Source of the DNA: Fenollaria timonensis
GTDB taxonomy: Bacteria; Bacillota; Clostridia; Tissierellales; Peptoniphilaceae
Reading direction: 5' to 3'
Assembly: GCF_001457835.1 (NCBI RefSeq)
Contig: NZ_LN898230.1
Span: 451,600 to 515,599, forward strand
DNA length: 64,000 nucleotides
A program made the position numbers and the translations under genes. Positions 22,511 to 61,581 of this stretch are shown here, one piece after another (position 1 is the first letter of the stretch; each line of letters opens with the position of its first letter). A model generated the notes under the pieces. The model ran no database searches. It had not been told where the DNA came from and saw only the letters and a program-made list of their open reading frames with translations.

Positions 22511-22695
22511 CGTTTTACTAGTGCTAGGACATAAGCATGTACTAAGAACATCTCAAGCGATATGCACTCAAAACCATAAACATAATTAATAAGGGCCATT
22601 CAAAGCCGTTTACTATGTTAAATTTATGTAACAGTCTTTGAAATAAGTTGCAATTTACTCTCGTTGATGTTAATATAATACTAGGAGGCATAGCT

Positions 22696-24531
22696 ATGAA
22701 AAAATTTATTTTAGGACTTCTTATTGTTTTATGCTTTTTATGTTCTGCGAATGTATATGCACAGAGCATAAATATAAGGATAGCGAATAAGAATTACAAA
22801 GCATCATTAATAAATGTAAAGGTTGATGGAGTGGATAAACAAAGCAAGGAGATGCCAAGTTTTATCTATCAAAGAAGGACGCTTGTTCCAATCAGGTTCT
22901 TATCCGAAACTTTTGGCGCGAGTGTTGATTGGAATAGTAAAAGTCAATCGGCTATCATAACTATGTCTGACAAGAGCATAGTCTTGACTATAGACAAGGC
23001 TGAGGCGACGATTAATGGCGTTACTAAGCCTATAGAAAAGGCATACACTCCAAGGCTTGTTAGGGTTAATGGCGGCGGAGCAAGGACTTATGTTCCCTTA
23101 AGGTTTATCTCTGAGCTTTTTGGCTACGAAGTAGGCTGGGATAATAAATCTCAGACAGCTACTATCAATACGAATATGCAAGTCGTTGAAGAGCCAAGCG
23201 GCGATGATGACGCTATCATACTACCGAGCGGTGACGAGGAGCCTGATCAAATCAAGCCTGACAATCCTAGTATAAAGCCGAACACTAGTGAGCAGCCAAG
23301 TATTAAGCCTAGTACTGATGGCTTTGCACACTTGACGAATGTTGTTGCTACTAGACATAATGACAGGGACGCAGTTTTATTCCAAGGGCTAAAGGGCAAA
23401 TATAAAGTGACTAAGCTTGATGGTCCGGATAGGCTTGTGCTTGATTTTGAAAAAGCAATCTTTGATGATCCGGAGCTATATAGGGAGTACAACATAGTCA
23501 TGAACGGCATCAAAGGCGTTAGAGCTAGTCAATTTGCTGACAATGACAAGTCTAAGTCTGATATGAATGTTAGGATAGTTATTGATATAGAGGATGCGAA
23601 TGTCGATTACAAGATTGAAGAAACAAGTGACGGCCTTGTATTTTACACAAAGAAGTCGATGAAGTCTTTCTATTCATACGATAGCAGAATTTTTGCCATC
23701 AAGAACACTGAGGGTAGAGTCTCTGATTACGTTTATGACGATCTAATGAAGACCATAACTATGAACGTAGAGACTAGTAAAGAGCTTGAGACTGGCACTG
23801 AAGATTTTAAGGACCCATATATAAGGTCGCTTGTTGTAGAAAAGGCACAAAATGGCTACACTTACACTATAAACCTAGTTAGAAACGTATCTTTAGAGAA
23901 AGTGGACGCTGGCAGCGCTGACTACGCAATCAAACTTAGTAGAATTATTAATAACAAGCCATCTGATTACTTAATTATGCTTGACCCAGGTCATGGCGGA
24001 AGGGATCCTGGTTCTGTATCTAAGATTGACGGATCAAGTGAAACTGATTATATTCCGTATGTAGCTAGGTCTTTGGAAGCGAAACTTAAGGCGGCTGGTT
24101 ACAATGTTTTGAAGACTAACGATACTGTCGATGAATACGTCGATATATTTGAAAGGGCAAGGATGGCAAATAGAGTAAATGCGGATATCTTTGTAAGTAT
24201 TCACGTTAATAGTGCTACTTCACCATCTGCAGCAGGCATAGAAGTCTGCTATTCTAGCGATGCAAAGCACAGCAATAAGACAAGAAATCAAAAAGAGTTT
24301 GCTGATTGCATACTAAATGCTGTTGGCAACCTTATTGGCAACAAGGGACGTGGCCTTAAGGAGGGCGCCTACGTTGTTACAAGAAATACCAATATGCCGG
24401 CGGCTCTACTTGAGATGGAATTTTTATCAAATAAAAATACTCTAGCGCTATTAAAGAGTCAAGCCTACCTTGATAAGATGGTTGATGGTCTATATAACGG
24501 CATTGTAGATTACTTGAACAATTATTATTAG
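22696..24531 (+). CDS. secreted N-acetylmuramoyl-L-alanine amidase with copper-amine-oxidase-like N-terminal and AMIN domains
   Basis: 611 aa; cleaves the amide between MurNAc and L-Ala in peptidoglycan. Signal peptide at 1-23 (ends VYAQ). Residues about 35-160 hold two copies of the PIRFLSE..G..V.W....(Q)A.I repeat of the copper amine oxidase N-terminal-like domain, a wall-associated module. An Asp/Pro/Ser-rich linker follows, then an AMIN-like domain (about 215-400), then Amidase_3 from LDPGHGGRDPGS with zinc His, SIHVNS with the second His, and catalytic Glu in LLEMEFLSN. ATG at 22696 is seven bases after AGGAGG. The next gene begins 9 bases downstream. Confidence 0.93.
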   Translation: MKKFILGLLIVLCFLCSANVYAQSINIRIANKNYKASLINVKVDGVDKQSKEMPSFIYQRRTLVPIRFLSETFGASVDWNSKSQSAIITMSDKSIVLTIDKAEATINGVTKPIEKAYTPRLVRVNGGGARTYVPLRFISELFGYEVGWDNKSQTATINTNMQVVEEPSGDDDAIILPSGDEEPDQIKPDNPSIKPNTSEQPSIKPSTDGFAHLTNVVATRHNDRDAVLFQGLKGKYKVTKLDGPDRLVLDFEKAIFDDPELYREYNIVMNGIKGVRASQFADNDKSKSDMNVRIVIDIEDANVDYKIEETSDGLVFYTKKSMKSFYSYDSRIFAIKNTEGRVSDYVYDDLMKTITMNVETSKELETGTEDFKDPYIRSLVVEKAQNGYTYTINLVRNVSLEKVDAGSADYAIKLSRIINNKPSDYLIMLDPGHGGRDPGSVSKIDGSSETDYIPYVARSLEAKLKAAGYNVLKTNDTVDEYVDIFERARMANRVNADIFVSIHVNSATSPSAAGIEVCYSSDAKHSNKTRNQKEFADCILNAVGNLIGNKGRGLKEGAYVVTRNTNMPAALLEMEFLSNKNTLALLKSQAYLDKMVDGLYNGIVDYLNNYY

Positions 24532-24540
24532 AGGTTTATT

Positions 24541-25707
24541 ATGAAAAAAGTTATTGTTTCAACAAACAATGAAAGTAAATTAAAAGAGATTAAATTAATA
24601 TTTCACGAGCTAGGCTACGAAGTCCTTTCAAAGAAAGAGGCTGGCATAGCTGACTTCGACGTAGATGAGACAGGTACTACACTAGAGGAGAACGCCTACA
24701 TCAAGGCAAAGGCTCTTCGTGATATGGTGGATTGCGCAGTCATTAGCGACGACTCAGGTCTTTTCTGCGACGGTCTTTATGGCGAGCCAGGTATTTACTC
24801 AGCTCGTTACGCTGGGGAGCATGGTGATGACCATAAGAACAACGAGCTCTTACTCAAAAATCTTGAAGGCAGAGACAGAACGGCTCACTTCAAGAGTGTC
24901 ATCTGCTTTATCGATGAGGATCAAAAAGTGTTCTATGGTCATGGCAATGTTGATGGCGAGATACTTTATGAGTACAGAGGTGATGGCGGTTTTGGATACG
25001 ATCCACTCTTTTTACCAAAGGGGCACGACAAGACTTATGCTGAGATAGGAACCGAAGAGAAAAACAAGTTTTCGCACAGAAAGAGGGCTTTGGAAGATAT
25101 TAAGGAAAAGATCTTACTTGAGGGAAAACACAAGGAGCTATATAAAAAAGTAGACTTTGCTTTGACACTTGATGAGATGAAAAATATTTTAAGAGTGAAT
25201 AAGATAGCTGACGGTTCGAGAAGAGAGAACGTCGCTGAACACAGCTTTCACGCTGCGGTTCTAGCACCAGTTTTTAAGTACATGGGCAAGTTTGAGGTTG
25301 ACGCAAATAAGACGGCGGTACTACTTTTGTATCATGACCTGATTGAGATATACGCTGGCGACACATATTGCTATGACACAAAGGGCAATGAGGACAAGAA
25401 GCAAAGAGAGAGCGAAGCAGCAGATAAATTATATTCAAAGCTTGATTCCCTAGGCGATGAGCTTAGAAAATATTGGGATGAGTTTGAGGCTGCTGAGACG
25501 AACGAAGCAAAGTATGCGAATGCACTTGACAGGTTCCAACCACTCTTAATGCACTTTGCCTTTAATTCGCATTCGTGGCAAGACCACAAGATTACAAAGG
25601 AAGCCGTTCTTAAGAGGATGGCACCTATAAAGATATATTCAGACGAAATGTATGATTTTGTCTTGGATTATGTAGAAAGTCAATTTAAGAAAGAGGAGAT
25701 GATTTAA
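24541..25707 (+). CDS. RdgB/HAM1-type XTP/dITP pyrophosphatase fused to a YfbR-like HD hydrolase
   Basis: 388 aa, about twice the length of RdgB. Residues 1-195 are a complete house-cleaning NTP pyrophosphatase: STNNESKLKE, DDSGLFCDGLYGEPGIYSAR, GFGYDPLF and FSHRKRAL, removing ITP/XTP/dITP. Residues about 200-388 are an HD-type domain like the 5'-deoxynucleotidase YfbR/HDDC2: ENVAEHSFHAAV (His), LYHDLIEIYAGDT (His-Asp), and ALDRFQPLL (distal Asp), so its metal site looks intact. The two domains are in one frame with no internal stop and a short linker. The first gives NMPs from bad NTPs and the second may dephosphorylate (d)NMPs. Stop overlaps pepA start (TAATG). Confidence 0.92.
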   Translation: MKKVIVSTNNESKLKEIKLIFHELGYEVLSKKEAGIADFDVDETGTTLEENAYIKAKALRDMVDCAVISDDSGLFCDGLYGEPGIYSARYAGEHGDDHKNNELLLKNLEGRDRTAHFKSVICFIDEDQKVFYGHGNVDGEILYEYRGDGGFGYDPLFLPKGHDKTYAEIGTEEKNKFSHRKRALEDIKEKILLEGKHKELYKKVDFALTLDEMKNILRVNKIADGSRRENVAEHSFHAAVLAPVFKYMGKFEVDANKTAVLLLYHDLIEIYAGDTYCYDTKGNEDKKQRESEAADKLYSKLDSLGDELRKYWDEFEAAETNEAKYANALDRFQPLLMHFAFNSHSWQDHKITKEAVLKRMAPIKIYSDEMYDFVLDYVESQFKKEEMI

Positions 25708-27152
25708 TGAAAATTACAGTAAACGAGAAGAAGGGTATCAAGGTTTTACCAGTATTTGAAGATGATTTGAACTTCTTCGAAAAATCAGAGGGTCTTGATG
25801 CTTTAGTAGAAAAAGAGTACTTTACAGGCAAAGCAAGCGAAGTATTTGTAGAACTTGGCGAAGATGAGATAATTTATCTTGGCCTTGGCAAAAAGGATGA
25901 GATCACTACTAAGAAGATTATAGTAGCTTTCTTTGAATTAGCAAAAGCACTTAGAAAGTACAAGATTAAAGACGCAAACATCATTTTCAATAAGAAGCTT
26001 GATAATATTTGCTATAGAACTACTATGAAGGCTATAGTTGATGGTCTTGCATGCTTTAACTATGATTTTGATAAATATTTAGCTGAAGACAAGAAGCCTA
26101 CTAAGCTTGGCACTATCAACATAGAAGTTATTGAAGATAAAAAGGATAAAGCTATGTCTGCCATAGAAGAAGGCATGAACATCGCTGAAGGATACTCACT
26201 AACAAAGGATTTAGTTAACACTCCTGCCATTGACATGTATCCAGAAGTTTTAGCTAAGAGAGCGAAGGAAGACCTTGAGCCGCTTGGCGTTACTGTTGAA
26301 GTATATGGCAAGAAAGAGATAGAAGATTTAGGTATGAAGGCGTTCTTAGCAGTTGCAGCTGGTTCAGACAAAGAGCCTAAGCTAATTGTTATGAAATATA
26401 TGAATGGTGAAGAAGGCGATAAACTTACTGCACTTGTTGGTAAGGGCTTAACTTATGACTCAGGCGGATACTGCATCAAGCACCCACAAGGCATGGCTAC
26501 AATGCATATGGATATGGGCGGAGCAGGTGCTGTTATAGGCGCAATGCATGCCATCGCCAAGAACAAAGTAAAGAAGAATGTTGTAGCTGTCGTTGCATCA
26601 TGCGAAAACTTAATTTCAGGCAAGGCATACAAGACTGGCGATTTAATCGGATCTATGTCAGGTAAGACTATAGAAGTAGCTAATACTGACGCTGAGGGAA
26701 GACTTACTCTTGCTGATGCTATCTACTACGCATCAGATGTGCTTAAAGCTGATAGGATAGTTGACCTAGCTACACTTACAGGCGCTTGTGTAGTTGCACT
26801 TGGCTCATATAGAACTGGTGTTGTTACAAATAACGATGAGTTTATGAATGAAATGAACGAAGCAGCAAAAAGAGCTGATGAAAAGCTATGGGTAATGCCT
26901 AACGACGATGAGTACAAGGACATGGTTAAGGGCACTATGACTGATTTACTAAACTCAGTACCTGGCGGCGCTGGTATGATTACAGCTGGTATGTTCCTTG
27001 AAAACTTTGTTAAGGAAGGAACTCCATGGATACACATGGACATAGCGGGAACTTCAGATACTTCAAAGGACTACGCACAATACAAAAAAGGCTCAACTGG
27101 CGTTCCAGTTAAGACACTTTACTACCTAGTAAATACTGAACACATTTGCTAA
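25707..27152 (+). CDS. pepA: leucyl aminopeptidase (M17)
   Basis: Cytoplasmic two-metal aminopeptidase for N-terminal residues of peptides. 481 aa. C-terminal catalytic domain has VGKGLTYDSGGYCIK (catalytic Lys and metal Asp), MHMDMGGAGAVIGAM, and the signature NTDAEGRLTLADAI. The N-terminal macrodomain-like half is less conserved, as usual. It is translationally coupled to the fusion gene and ends at a strong bidirectional terminator facing the minus-strand operon. Confidence 0.95.
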   Translation: MKITVNEKKGIKVLPVFEDDLNFFEKSEGLDALVEKEYFTGKASEVFVELGEDEIIYLGLGKKDEITTKKIIVAFFELAKALRKYKIKDANIIFNKKLDNICYRTTMKAIVDGLACFNYDFDKYLAEDKKPTKLGTINIEVIEDKKDKAMSAIEEGMNIAEGYSLTKDLVNTPAIDMYPEVLAKRAKEDLEPLGVTVEVYGKKEIEDLGMKAFLAVAAGSDKEPKLIVMKYMNGEEGDKLTALVGKGLTYDSGGYCIKHPQGMATMHMDMGGAGAVIGAMHAIAKNKVKKNVVAVVASCENLISGKAYKTGDLIGSMSGKTIEVANTDAEGRLTLADAIYYASDVLKADRIVDLATLTGACVVALGSYRTGVVTNNDEFMNEMNEAAKRADEKLWVMPNDDEYKDMVKGTMTDLLNSVPGGAGMITAGMFLENFVKEGTPWIHMDIAGTSDTSKDYAQYKKGSTGVPVKTLYYLVNTEHIC

Positions 27153-27219: not shown

Positions 27220-28209
27220 CTATTTACTTAAGTATTTTTTATATGCTTCTTCGTCTAAAACCAAATCGAACTCACCTATAAACTCGGTGAAGTCCTCTTC
27301 GTTTAGGAAGCCTCTTTTAAATCTGTATAAACCATCTTCATCGTCAAGCTTAAATATGCCGCCGAAGTCGTAGCGAGTAGCGCCATGCTCCTTCGCATAC
27401 TTAATCATTTCCCACTGCATTTGATAGTTGGGCATATAGTTTCTGTGAAGATTGTTTGACGCACCGTACATGTACCACGCGTAGTCCTTATACATAATGA
27501 GTATCGCGCTCGATAGAGGTGTTCCTTCATAGTCTGATAAAAATATTTTAGCGTCGTAATTATCTATGAGTCTCTTAAAATACTCTTTTGGTCTATAAGT
27601 GATGCCGTTGCGCTCAGCCATGACCTTAGTCTCTTCGAAGAAGGTATTTAGGTCCTCATCACTTTGTGAGATCCTTGTCGTAACGCCTTTTCTGTAGCTT
27701 AGGCGAATGTTGTAGCGCGTCTTTGAGTGGAAGCCCCCCAGTATATCGTCTTCACTTTTACTTATATCGATGATGGCATTCCTTCTTGGCTGAATAAAGC
27801 TGTGTTCATCAGCGCCTCTCGTTCTTATTTTTAATTCTGTATCCTTATATAGACGGGTAAGCTTTTCATCATAGGCAATGGCTGGATCAAATATTAATAA
27901 AAATGCGTCCTTAAACTTATCCAATTTTTTCACTTCATCTACTAAGGCTAAAACAGTATCTTTATCATATATATCACAGACAGGTCCGCGATTGGCATAA
28001 AGCAGCCACTTTCCATCTATTGCCTTGATAGATAGTATGCTCATTGCGGCGACTATCTTACCATCGTTTTCTAAATAAACATAGTCTTCGGACCAATTGT
28101 TTTTTATCTTCGCCCAAGCTCTGTCCTGAGTTAAAAAGCTATATTCATTTCTTTTTACAAAGTCATCATAGCGTTTTAGCTCAGAAGGGTTATTTGTATC
28201 AAGTATCAT
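27220..28209 (-). CDS. FemAB-family peptidoglycan bridge aminoacyltransferase
   Basis: 329 aa, two GNAT-like folds. Recognised from WLLYANRGPVCD, the central SKTRYNIRLSYRKGV, the helical-arm-like segment and MYGASNNLHRNYMPNYQMQWEMIKYAKEHGATRYDFGG near the C-terminus, the hallmark of the FemX/FemAB family that transfers amino acids from aminoacyl-tRNA to the stem-peptide lysine or ornithine of lipid II. It starts directly after the stop of the ATP-grasp gene with GGTGA as RBS, so both are one operon. Which amino acid is added is unknown. Confidence 0.88.
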   Translation of the reverse strand: MILDTNNPSELKRYDDFVKRNEYSFLTQDRAWAKIKNNWSEDYVYLENDGKIVAAMSILSIKAIDGKWLLYANRGPVCDIYDKDTVLALVDEVKKLDKFKDAFLLIFDPAIAYDEKLTRLYKDTELKIRTRGADEHSFIQPRRNAIIDISKSEDDILGGFHSKTRYNIRLSYRKGVTTRISQSDEDLNTFFEETKVMAERNGITYRPKEYFKRLIDNYDAKIFLSDYEGTPLSSAILIMYKDYAWYMYGASNNLHRNYMPNYQMQWEMIKYAKEHGATRYDFGGIFKLDDEDGLYRFKRGFLNEEDFTEFIGEFDLVLDEEAYKKYLSK

Positions 28210-29424
28210 CTAATTCACCAACTTCTTCTTAAAAAATTCTTCAAATCTCTTGTCGTATCTCGAGTAGTACTCATCTAAACTTGCTTTTCTCTTTGCGTTC
28301 AAGTCCTTTCTATAGTATAGAGCCATGTTTTCAATATCGTCATTGTAGCTACTCATCTTTTCCTTTGCGGCATCGCTTTCGATGTATTTTAATACAGTTT
28401 CGTATCTTGCTCCTAAGAATAAAAACTTATCCTTGCCAATGATTATCTCGTCATCTTTATGATAAACAAAGTCATTGACAAGCGCTTCGGCTAGGTTTGC
28501 GCCCGCAAGCGTTGAGAAGAAAGACGAGCGTCCTTGTCTAAGATTGATTTCAAAAACCTTGTACTCTTTTGTTCTGTCATCAAGCTTGATATCAAAGTTT
28601 GCCAATCCACGATAATTTATTTTCTCCAAGAAATTTTTAATCATAGGGAAGATCTTTTCGTAGGCATCTTGACTTACATCAGCTATGGCAAGGTAGTTAC
28701 CTATAAGTAGTGGGGTAGGGTCCTCCATAAGAGCTCTTCCTAGGGAGAATAGTTTTAGCTTGCCACTGCTATCGACGTAGGCGTTGACCACATGCATATT
28801 CGAGTCGGCTCCTTCAATAAATTCTTGAGCTATCATGTAGTCGCCGTAGCCATTAGCATATATATCATTAAGAGCCTTATTTAATTCAGCTTCATTTTTT
28901 AATATATATGCTTTTTTCTTGCCCTCGAAGTCCAAGAAGAAGTATTCAACACTGTTAGATGGCTTTAAGACCATAGGAAAGTCAAAGCTTGTCTTGTAGC
29001 TCTTGTAATTATCCTTGTTAATGTACTCGCTCTTTGGATACTTAAGACCATATTTTTCGCATAAGTCGTAGAAGTTCTTCTTAAGTACTAGCTCATTAAG
29101 CATGGACTTATCTGTAAATGGCAAATTATATCCACGTATCTTATCTTTGTTCATGATGACTCTCTCTGCATATGAGTCAGACGATGCTACTAGTATGAGC
29201 TCCTTGTCTTGATGCGCTTCTTTAATTTTATTTAGCTCATCAAGCATGACCGCATCGTCATCTAAGTCCTTATTGATTATTATATCGACAATATCAGAGT
29301 TCTCAGTCATAAGCAGCCTTGCCTTACCTAAGACCAAAGACTTAATGCCGTATTTCATATGAAAGCTTCTCGCCATAGAGTAGCTGTTAACATCTGTTCC
29401 TAATATAACTGGTAAAAAATTCAT
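28210..29424 (-). CDS. ATP-grasp ligase, possibly a D-amino-acid (D-Asp-type) ligase
   Basis: 404 aa. An N-terminal Rossmann-like part (LPVILGTDVNSYSMARSF) is followed by an ATP-grasp domain: FPMVLKPSNSVEYF (ATP lysine), MIAQEFIEGADSNMH, and YKVFEINLRQGRSSF (metal Glu/Asn). This layout matches ligases such as the enterococcal D-aspartate ligase of the peptidoglycan cross-bridge; the identification is by layout only. Coupling to a FemAB-type gene supports a bridge role. ATG at 29424 was chosen for AAGGAG eight bases upstream; an in-frame ATG 16 codons earlier lacks an RBS. Confidence 0.78.
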   Translation of the reverse strand: MNFLPVILGTDVNSYSMARSFHMKYGIKSLVLGKARLLMTENSDIVDIIINKDLDDDAVMLDELNKIKEAHQDKELILVASSDSYAERVIMNKDKIRGYNLPFTDKSMLNELVLKKNFYDLCEKYGLKYPKSEYINKDNYKSYKTSFDFPMVLKPSNSVEYFFLDFEGKKKAYILKNEAELNKALNDIYANGYGDYMIAQEFIEGADSNMHVVNAYVDSSGKLKLFSLGRALMEDPTPLLIGNYLAIADVSQDAYEKIFPMIKNFLEKINYRGLANFDIKLDDRTKEYKVFEINLRQGRSSFFSTLAGANLAEALVNDFVYHKDDEIIIGKDKFLFLGARYETVLKYIESDAAKEKMSSYNDDIENMALYYRKDLNAKRKASLDEYYSRYDKRFEEFFKKKLVN

Positions 29425-29455
29425 AATTATCTCCTTTATATATATCACTACACTC

Positions 29456-29484
29456 ATTATAACATATATCAATCAAATTCTAAA
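29456..29484 (-). promoter_or_regulatory. promoter of the ATP-grasp/FemAB operon
   Basis: On the minus strand TTTAGA (29484-29479), 17-bp spacer, TATAAT (29461-29456), about 30 bases before the ATG. Confidence 0.55.
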
Positions 29485-60933: not shown

Positions 60934-61581
60934 ATGTTAGGTATAGCTAAATTTATAGATCAAACAAATTTAAAACAGGACGCAAGCGAGTCTGATATTA
61001 TAAAGCTTGTAGAAGAGCAAAGAAAATATAAGTTCAGATCCATATGTATAGCGCCATCATTTTTGCAAGTCGCTCGTAAAAACTTGCAAAATATTTACCT
61101 CACTACAGTGATATCATTTCCTAATGGATATGCATCTACAGAGGCGAAAATATTTGAAGCAAAAGATGCGATTAAAAACGGAGCAAACGATTTAGATATT
61201 GTTTCGAACATCGGAAGAATCAAGATGAGAGACTATGACTATCTAAGTAAAGAGGTAAATGCTCTAAGAGAGATTACTAAGTCACATATATTAAAATTTA
61301 TAATAGAAACTTCCTTCCTTAATAAGGAAGATATATTATATATAACAAAGATATTGGCTGAGAATGGCGTAGATTACGTGAAGACATCAACAGGCTTTAC
61401 GAAGTCCGGAGCAAAATTAGATGACGTAAAATTTATAAAAGAAAATTTCGATGGAAAAATAAAAATAAAAGCCTCAGGAGGTATTTCTGATTACAAAACT
61501 GCATTAGACTTTATCGATGCAGGTGCTGATGTTATCGGTACTTCACGCGGTTTAGAAATTATAAATTATAAAGAAATTTAA
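60934..61581 (+). CDS. deoC: deoxyribose-phosphate aldolase
   Basis: 215 aa class I aldolase that splits 2-deoxyribose 5-phosphate to acetaldehyde and glyceraldehyde 3-phosphate. FIDQTNLKQDAS at the start, VISFPNGYASTEAKIFEAKDAI, then the Schiff-base lysine in DYVKTSTGF and IKASGGISDYKTALDFIDAGADVIGTSRG. In canonical enzymes the start reads IDHTLL; here DQTNL. GGGAG is about 15 bases before the ATG, so initiation may be weak. Confidence 0.92.
   Translation: MLGIAKFIDQTNLKQDASESDIIKLVEEQRKYKFRSICIAPSFLQVARKNLQNIYLTTVISFPNGYASTEAKIFEAKDAIKNGANDLDIVSNIGRIKMRDYDYLSKEVNALREITKSHILKFIIETSFLNKEDILYITKILAENGVDYVKTSTGFTKSGAKLDDVKFIKENFDGKIKIKASGGISDYKTALDFIDAGADVIGTSRGLEIINYKEI

Follow-up and report, generated by a model that had tools for sequence, protein, structure and literature searches.

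Organization of the locus

The window analyzed here is a stretch of 64,000 nucleotides from Fenollaria timonensis, and the fusion gene, its parts and the two genes flanking it lie on its forward (+) strand. A single frame of 388 codons plus TAA extends from ATG to TAA at positions 24541..25707 without an internal stop. The same fused frame is present in the Fenollaria loci L002, L003 and L031. Both the uninterrupted frame and the order of its domains, RdgB/HAM1 followed by HD, had been described in a first-pass annotation of this DNA and are borne out. In a Pfam scan of the fusion protein, Ham1p_like covers residues 5–189 (24553..25107) with 203.5 bits (E 3.6e-60, cut-off 22.5), in line with TIGR00042 and the structural model. 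HD_3 (PF13023) covers residues 211–361 (25171..25623) with 142.5 bits (E 1.5e-41, cut-off 22.5), in line with the model of the HD half and its fold match to 3kh1. The family YfbR-like matches the HD half more weakly (residues 206–360, 49 bits, E 7.3e-13). All three metal motifs named earlier are present, with AEHS starting at residue 232, YHD at residue 264 and ALDRF at residue 328.

The sequence AGAGG (24530..24534), located 6 bases 5' of the ATG, resembles a ribosome-binding site. An N-acetylmuramoyl-L-alanine amidase gene (22648..24531, assigned by Pfam) lies upstream and an M17 leucyl aminopeptidase gene (25707..27152) lies downstream, the latter overlapping the stop codon of the fusion by one base. 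On the opposite (-) strand follow the genes for a FemAB/FemX-like aminoacyltransferase (27220..28209) and an ATP-grasp-like protein that scores below family cut-offs (28210..29472).

GC content and GC3 are alike between the RdgB and HD halves, so there is no sign that either half is a recent foreign acquisition. The GC content of both halves is 41–43%, compared to 35.7% for the whole window. In its own genome, which is 99.74% complete, the fusion protein is the sole match to either half (E 0.001).

Conservation of the fused gene

The genus Fenollaria comprises a few anaerobic bacteria associated with humans and is placed in the family Peptoniphilaceae according to PMC9302094. The same fused gene is present in all three Fenollaria genomes found, with full-length matches in the two others at 96% (G001) and 93% (G002) identity. 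The best named match is F. massiliensis 9401234 (NZ_HG326224.1), with 96% identity over all 388 residues; G001 has the identical coding sequence. Among the Fenollaria genomes, dS of the whole gene is 0.64–1.07 and dN is 0.020–0.036. The dN/dS ratio is 0.029–0.036 in each half and 0.05–0.10 in the 16-residue junction, which comprises few sites. As the fusion is shared by the three Fenollaria genomes with a dN/dS of about 0.03 per half, it is maintained as a single gene product.

The first-pass annotation had raised the concern that a frameshift artefact might join two genes. The probability of such an error, or of a faulty assembly, is negligible. The same 388-codon frame occurs in three genomes and in NZ_HG326224.1, it contains no internal stop and its dN/dS is low in the junction, too. 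An artefact was therefore rejected on the basis of these full-length matches and of purifying selection. The fusion is genuine and specific to this lineage, and it unites two enzyme families that are already known.

The in-frame ATG, GTG and TTG codons of the Fenollaria sequences offer no evident conserved start from which the HD half could be translated separately. The closest one upstream of the HD half is TTG184 in the window; in L002 and L031 it is codon 63, and in L003 it is codon 104. Use of TTG184 or TTG208 as a start in the window species is conceivable.

The RdgB half

Enzymes of the RdgB family convert non-canonical purine triphosphates (dITP, XTP and ITP) to the monophosphate and PPi. 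The N-terminal half of the fusion scores above the cut-off of TIGR00042 (192.1 vs 145.35) and below that of the narrower equivalog NF011397 (207.8 vs 234). It is 41% identical to E. coli RdgB and has the SDDSG motif (residues 69–73, 24745..24759) and the SHR motif (residues 178–180, 25072..25080) in common with it. Over 37 aligned RdgB rows, 22 columns are invariant. These include Asn10, Lys13, Glu16, Glu43, Asp71, Lys174 and Ser178-His179-Arg180, all shared with E. coli RdgB, as well as Gly73. In 2pyu, an E. coli structure with bound IMP, the Asp that corresponds to Asp71 is replaced by Ala. The model of this half has pLDDT values mostly above 90 and matches S. aureus Ham1 (4bnq) with a Z-score of 26.8 (1.8 Å, 191 residues) and E. 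coli RdgB (1k7k) with a Z-score of 25.7. The likeness to the RdgB/ITPA/HAM1 proteins thus comprises the fold of the whole N-terminal half and both motifs. The fusion differs by its second, C-terminal enzyme domain, whereas the solved RdgB-type chains used for comparison comprise 181–221 residues.

RdgB also shares a chain with a different enzyme in the RNase PH-RdgB fusions that related genera of the same family possess (L010:748-2100, L026:1498-2802 and L135:12384-13706). These frames of 435–451 codons are located just behind an amidase gene. Their partner, however, is an N-terminal RNase PH, which is neither a nucleotide phosphatase nor the enzyme of a subsequent step. Long frames around RdgB were additionally observed in G006 (454) and G028 (555). 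PRK02491 (NF002698) is a longer protein whose RdgB domain lies towards the C-terminus. The RdgB half aligns to positions 130–318 of the 328 positions of this profile, but the extra region of that family is N-terminal and unmatched in the fusion, and the score of 139.7 is far below the cut-off of 301. KomB of the Kongming defence system (8zsg, 9v0g) is HAM1-like, with Z-scores of 18.4–19.7, and dITP appears in the title of entry 9xvc. KomB was solved in complex with KomC, whereas the fusion has an HD enzyme domain attached and is without a second RdgB match in its genome.

The junction

The junction comprises residues 190–210 (25108..25170). In a structure prediction, as proposed for the linker in the first-pass annotation, a helix is modelled for residues 179–203, and confidence is low after about residue 200. 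The last RdgB helix seems to continue towards the HD half in this model, so the junction is apparently short and a long linker is not recognizable. The model of the whole protein is reliable for the RdgB half, while the block of the HD half, for which two alignment rows were available, has pLDDT values of about 37–67; the pTM is 0.56. RdgB is a dimer. YfbR is likewise described as dimeric (PMC8475336), and a chain with two dimerizing domains could form higher assemblies.

The HD half

The designation of the C-terminal half as YfbR-like, given in the first-pass annotation, is accurate only with respect to the HD_3 family. It is not YfbR proper, as indicated by a score of 31.9 bits against the YfbR equivalog NF003009 (cut-off 122) and by a Val at the position of Trp19. 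The identity to E. coli YfbR is 29–31%.

Arg218, His234, His265, Asp266, Glu269, Asp274 and Asp330 are kept in 3/3 fused and 21/21 other sequences, so the conservation of metal residues in homologues, on which the earlier assignment had been made to depend, is confirmed. We take these residues to be the equivalents of Arg18, His33, His68, Asp69, Glu72, Asp77 and Asp137 of YfbR, respectively. Arg218 (first codon of 25192..25200, which also encodes Val219 and Asn220) is presumably the phosphate-binding or catalytic Arg of the HD site. The first metal ligand position, His234 (25240..25242), is His in YfbR as well. The HD pair His265-Asp266 (25333..25338) is invariant, as are Glu269 (25345..25347) and Asp274 (25360..25362), to which we ascribe the catalytic roles of YfbR Glu72 and Asp77. 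Entries titled E72A are found in the list of fold matches. Asp330 (25528..25530) occupies the last metal ligand position; it is Asp in all fused proteins and all 21 other relatives, the last Asp of YfbR being out of register in this alignment.

The residues following the conserved Arg differ. In the 2008 YfbR structure work by Zimmerman, Trp19 was reportedly proposed as the selectivity switch for deoxyribose. This position is Val219 in the fused proteins and Gln, Arg, Met or Lys in the 21 other relatives. The next residue is Asn220 in the fused proteins, compared to Thr (20 sequences) or Ser (one sequence) in the others.

Modelled alone from 14 sequences, the HD half has a pLDDT of 85.9. Its fold matches 3kh1 (Z 22.9, 2.4 Å, 192 residues), human HDDC2 (4dmb; Z 17.4, 3.9 Å, 178 residues), yeast YGK1 (5yox; Z 13.1, 3.8 Å, 153 residues) and YfbR (2paq; Z 12.5, 3.6 Å, 164 residues), and OxsA (5tk7; Z 10.6) and DatZ (6zpa; Z 10.2) are also among the matches. 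Thus, the HD half is a relative of YfbR, not YfbR itself, and its fold is closer to 3kh1 and HDDC2. With the HD_3 enzymes it has the fold and the metal and catalytic positions in common; it differs from them by its attachment to RdgB and by Val219-Asn220. The title of the nearest solved entry, 3kh1, reads "predicted metal-dependent phosphohydrolase". The open-licence literature matches listed for YfbR, HDDC2 and PF13023/COG1896 contain no experimentally characterized protein from the near HD subfamily; by title, those for PF13023/COG1896 deal with malaria and other parasites, the letters of the identifiers coinciding by accident.

DatZ and OxsA are HD-fold triphosphohydrolases. Their presence among the fold matches fits with an HD half that changed its substrate after the fusion or became mainly structural, so that the protein would be RdgB with an HD accessory domain, acting on triphosphates like DatZ and OxsA or serving oligomerization. 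Val219-Asn220 beside the phosphate-binding Arg is consistent with this explanation, as is the long branch in the HD tree (about 1.06 changes per column between the fused HD sequences and the other relatives), although this tree is weak and has a very long YfbR branch. However, the invariance of all metal-ligand and catalytic positions and an HD dN/dS equal to that of the RdgB half argue for a selected HD active site. Furthermore, the fold is nearer to HDDC2 than to DatZ or OxsA, with YfbR just about 2 Z-score units above the latter two. An accessory role or a new substrate of the HD half is rather improbable.

Distribution

Outside Fenollaria, an RdgB-HD_3 fusion was found in none of the 246 other genomes of the order Tissierellales. 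A search of the order with the complete fusion protein (E 1e-60) gave matches in 6/249 genomes, three of them the full-length Fenollaria sequences and three RdgB alone. HD_3 itself was matched in 112/249 genomes at E 1e-8. From stop to stop, the HD_3 frames of the order have 391 codons in the three Fenollaria genomes, 434 in G047, 408 in G051 and no more than 277 in any other genome. The G051 frame does not contain RdgB. The G047 frame joins HD_3 to an RNase H domain (L119:5804-7093, 430 codons). In the family, HD_3 is present in 37 of the 100 sampled genomes and joined to RdgB in three. No other full-length match was obtained in samples of the class (391 genomes) and the phylum (398 genomes) at E 1e-50; the E limits of the order, class and phylum searches are such that a much diverged fusion could be missed. 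A scan of GTDB contigs, which reaches close relatives only and may omit the records of the window genome itself, gave 73 relatives, with F. massiliensis as the only full-length match. Two apparently longer matches, L034 and L099, were rejected because they are RdgB genes without a fusion partner (202 and 196 codons, respectively).

HD_3 matches are present in 60/259 genomes of the phylum and at least 161/274 of the class, and many Firmicutes HD_3 genes reside in frames of about 375–442 codons. These long frames were considered as further fusions and rejected, because an RdgB profile hit was obtained in 0/39 fetched loci. The set consisted of 37 loci in which the frame has a length of ≥350 codons (15 from the phylum and 21 from the class among the matches listed, and G051) and two shorter ones. 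Any ORF of length ≥60 in the fetched stretch was searched by hmmsearch with E up to 0.01, and the positive controls L001–L003, L031, L010, L026 and L135 all matched the RdgB profile. In the ten loci that were also scanned with Pfam, HD-type families only were detected. A recurrent frame of about 400–442 codons from stop to stop (L155–L159, L161, L162 and L164, all from the phylum) has some 195–235 residues without a Pfam match (E 0.001) N-terminal to HD_3. Another frame of 388 codons (L160:461-1624) contains two YfbR-like stretches and is apparently a tandem YfbR.

Among phage and plasmid records, 36 and 143, respectively, gave a match, none of them covering 80% of the query, and viral contigs were not matched by the whole fusion protein. 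Fourteen viral contigs (L137–L150) encode relatives of the HD half, and an alignment of 12 of these shows no variation in the HD pair or in the last Asp. As far as searched, the distribution of the fusion is narrow and confined to one genus within the samples covered.

Origin of the fusion

An amidase gene is located upstream of rdgB on the same strand in 8/27 relative rdgB loci, most of which span only about 1.5 kb per side. It directly precedes rdgB or RNase PH-RdgB in L010, L023, L025, L026, L029, L030 and L135 and lies about 740 bases before rdgB in L007. In L006, L008, L016, L022 and L028, gatB is found upstream instead. In the tree of the RdgB half, the fused sequences group with the genus g21 (support 92/77); the HD tree gives the HD half no firm placement. 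The rdgB gene of G022, a member of g21, begins within the amidase gene, four bases from its end, and has its own stop, and the HD_3 gene of G022 is on a different contig. Given the amidase-rdgB order in relatives and the separate genes of G022, the RdgB half most likely occupies the ancestral place and the HD gene moved in behind it.

In 20 relative contexts of HD_3 genes (L117–L136, one of them an RNase H fusion), as well as in the short locus L021, rdgB is never adjacent to HD_3; in one of the 20 contexts it is about 7 kb away. There is thus no sign of an older link between rdgB and HD. This arrangement and the restriction of the fusion to one genus are consistent with two active, unrelated enzymes that share a chain without coupling, fixed by chance in a small genome. 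The RdgB half would clean dITP and XTP, and the HD half would act on the general dNMP pool (e.g. dCMP, dUMP and dAMP) for salvage or for control of the pool, which is presumably also the role of unfused HD_3 genes in relatives. In the review PMC8475336, YfbR is likewise described as acting on dNMPs generally and as tied to dCMP and thymidylate synthesis. Such an uncoupled protein is a real possibility. It is opposed by the retention of the fusion over a dS of about 0.6–1.1, with no second HD_3 gene found in the three Fenollaria genomes. Furthermore, the nucleotides of both partners could be successive intermediates, a property that an arbitrary fusion need not show.

Proposed function

The explanation preferred here, to which we assign a probability of about one half, is a bifunctional house-cleaning enzyme of Fenollaria that converts dITP via dIMP to deoxyinosine on one chain. 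In both halves the family and the active site are evident and catalysis is predicted; we infer the substrates and the coupling of the steps. The RdgB half would hydrolyze dITP, XTP and ITP to the monophosphate and PPi, and the HD half would dephosphorylate the resulting deoxynucleoside monophosphate, dIMP yielding deoxyinosine. Disposal would be one-way, because dIMP could then not be re-phosphorylated to dITP. IMP is a normal purine intermediate, and if the HD half retains the deoxy preference of YfbR, the IMP that arises from ITP would remain available for purine synthesis.

The two-step disposal is made plausible by domain scores far above the Pfam cut-offs, sole copies of both domains, purifying selection and intact sites. 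By analogy, the characterized HD relatives, being nucleoside 5'-monophosphatases, also render it plausible. According to the review PMC8475336, YfbR hydrolyzes dNMPs and in E. coli has a link to the synthesis of dCMP and thymidylate, and YfbR and YGK1 are listed as dNMP phosphatases in PMC11592144. PenF, a member of the HD superfamily, acts on dIMP, albeit less than on dAMP (PMC11592144). It also acts on XMP and AMP (PMC11592144), which means that HD enzymes need not be selective for deoxynucleotides. The score below the YfbR equivalog cut-off and the title of 3kh1, which names a predicted phosphohydrolase, speak against the two-step disposal, for which the HD activity is itself a prediction. 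The specificity of the HD half may have changed, as suggested by Val219-Asn220 and the long branch in the weak HD tree. Additionally, such a dNMPase does not appear to be needed beside RdgB in general, since 63 of the 100 family genomes have no HD_3 match.

In a more specific form of the two-step disposal, the HD half would have been re-tuned by Val219-Asn220 for the product of RdgB and would take over dIMP directly, by a possible substrate channelling of the kind raised in the first-pass annotation, the mutagenic nucleotide having no chance of being re-phosphorylated. We consider this specific form doubtful.

The novelty lies in the pairing, as both enzyme families are already known. A combination of RdgB with YfbR or HD was not found in the open-licence literature, where absence is weak evidence, and neither was a domain fusion of RdgB or a nucleotidase linked to RdgB, dITP and dIMP. 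The words "pyrophosphatase" and "nucleotidase" are both absent from the main text of the paper on the F. massiliensis genome (PMC4148993), and PMC12715507 yielded nothing relevant. Since RdgB is naturally fused to a presumed dNMP phosphatase and the genome has no other copy of either domain, the HD half is a candidate for the step after RdgB, and this step becomes approachable with one purified protein. To our knowledge, the fate of the dIMP made by RdgB is seldom assigned to a given enzyme. If the coupling is real, two sequential steps of nucleotide sanitation would be combined in one chain, which would suggest that unfused HD_3 proteins elsewhere in the Firmicutes may take part in this route as well.

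A purine nucleoside phosphorylase could cleave deoxyinosine, the sugar of which could then be used via DeoC. These later steps are possible, not assured: the only PNP-superfamily gene of the genome scores best as MTAP and below every NCBIfam cut-off, and deoC, located in the window at 60934..61581, scores above its NCBIfam cut-off.
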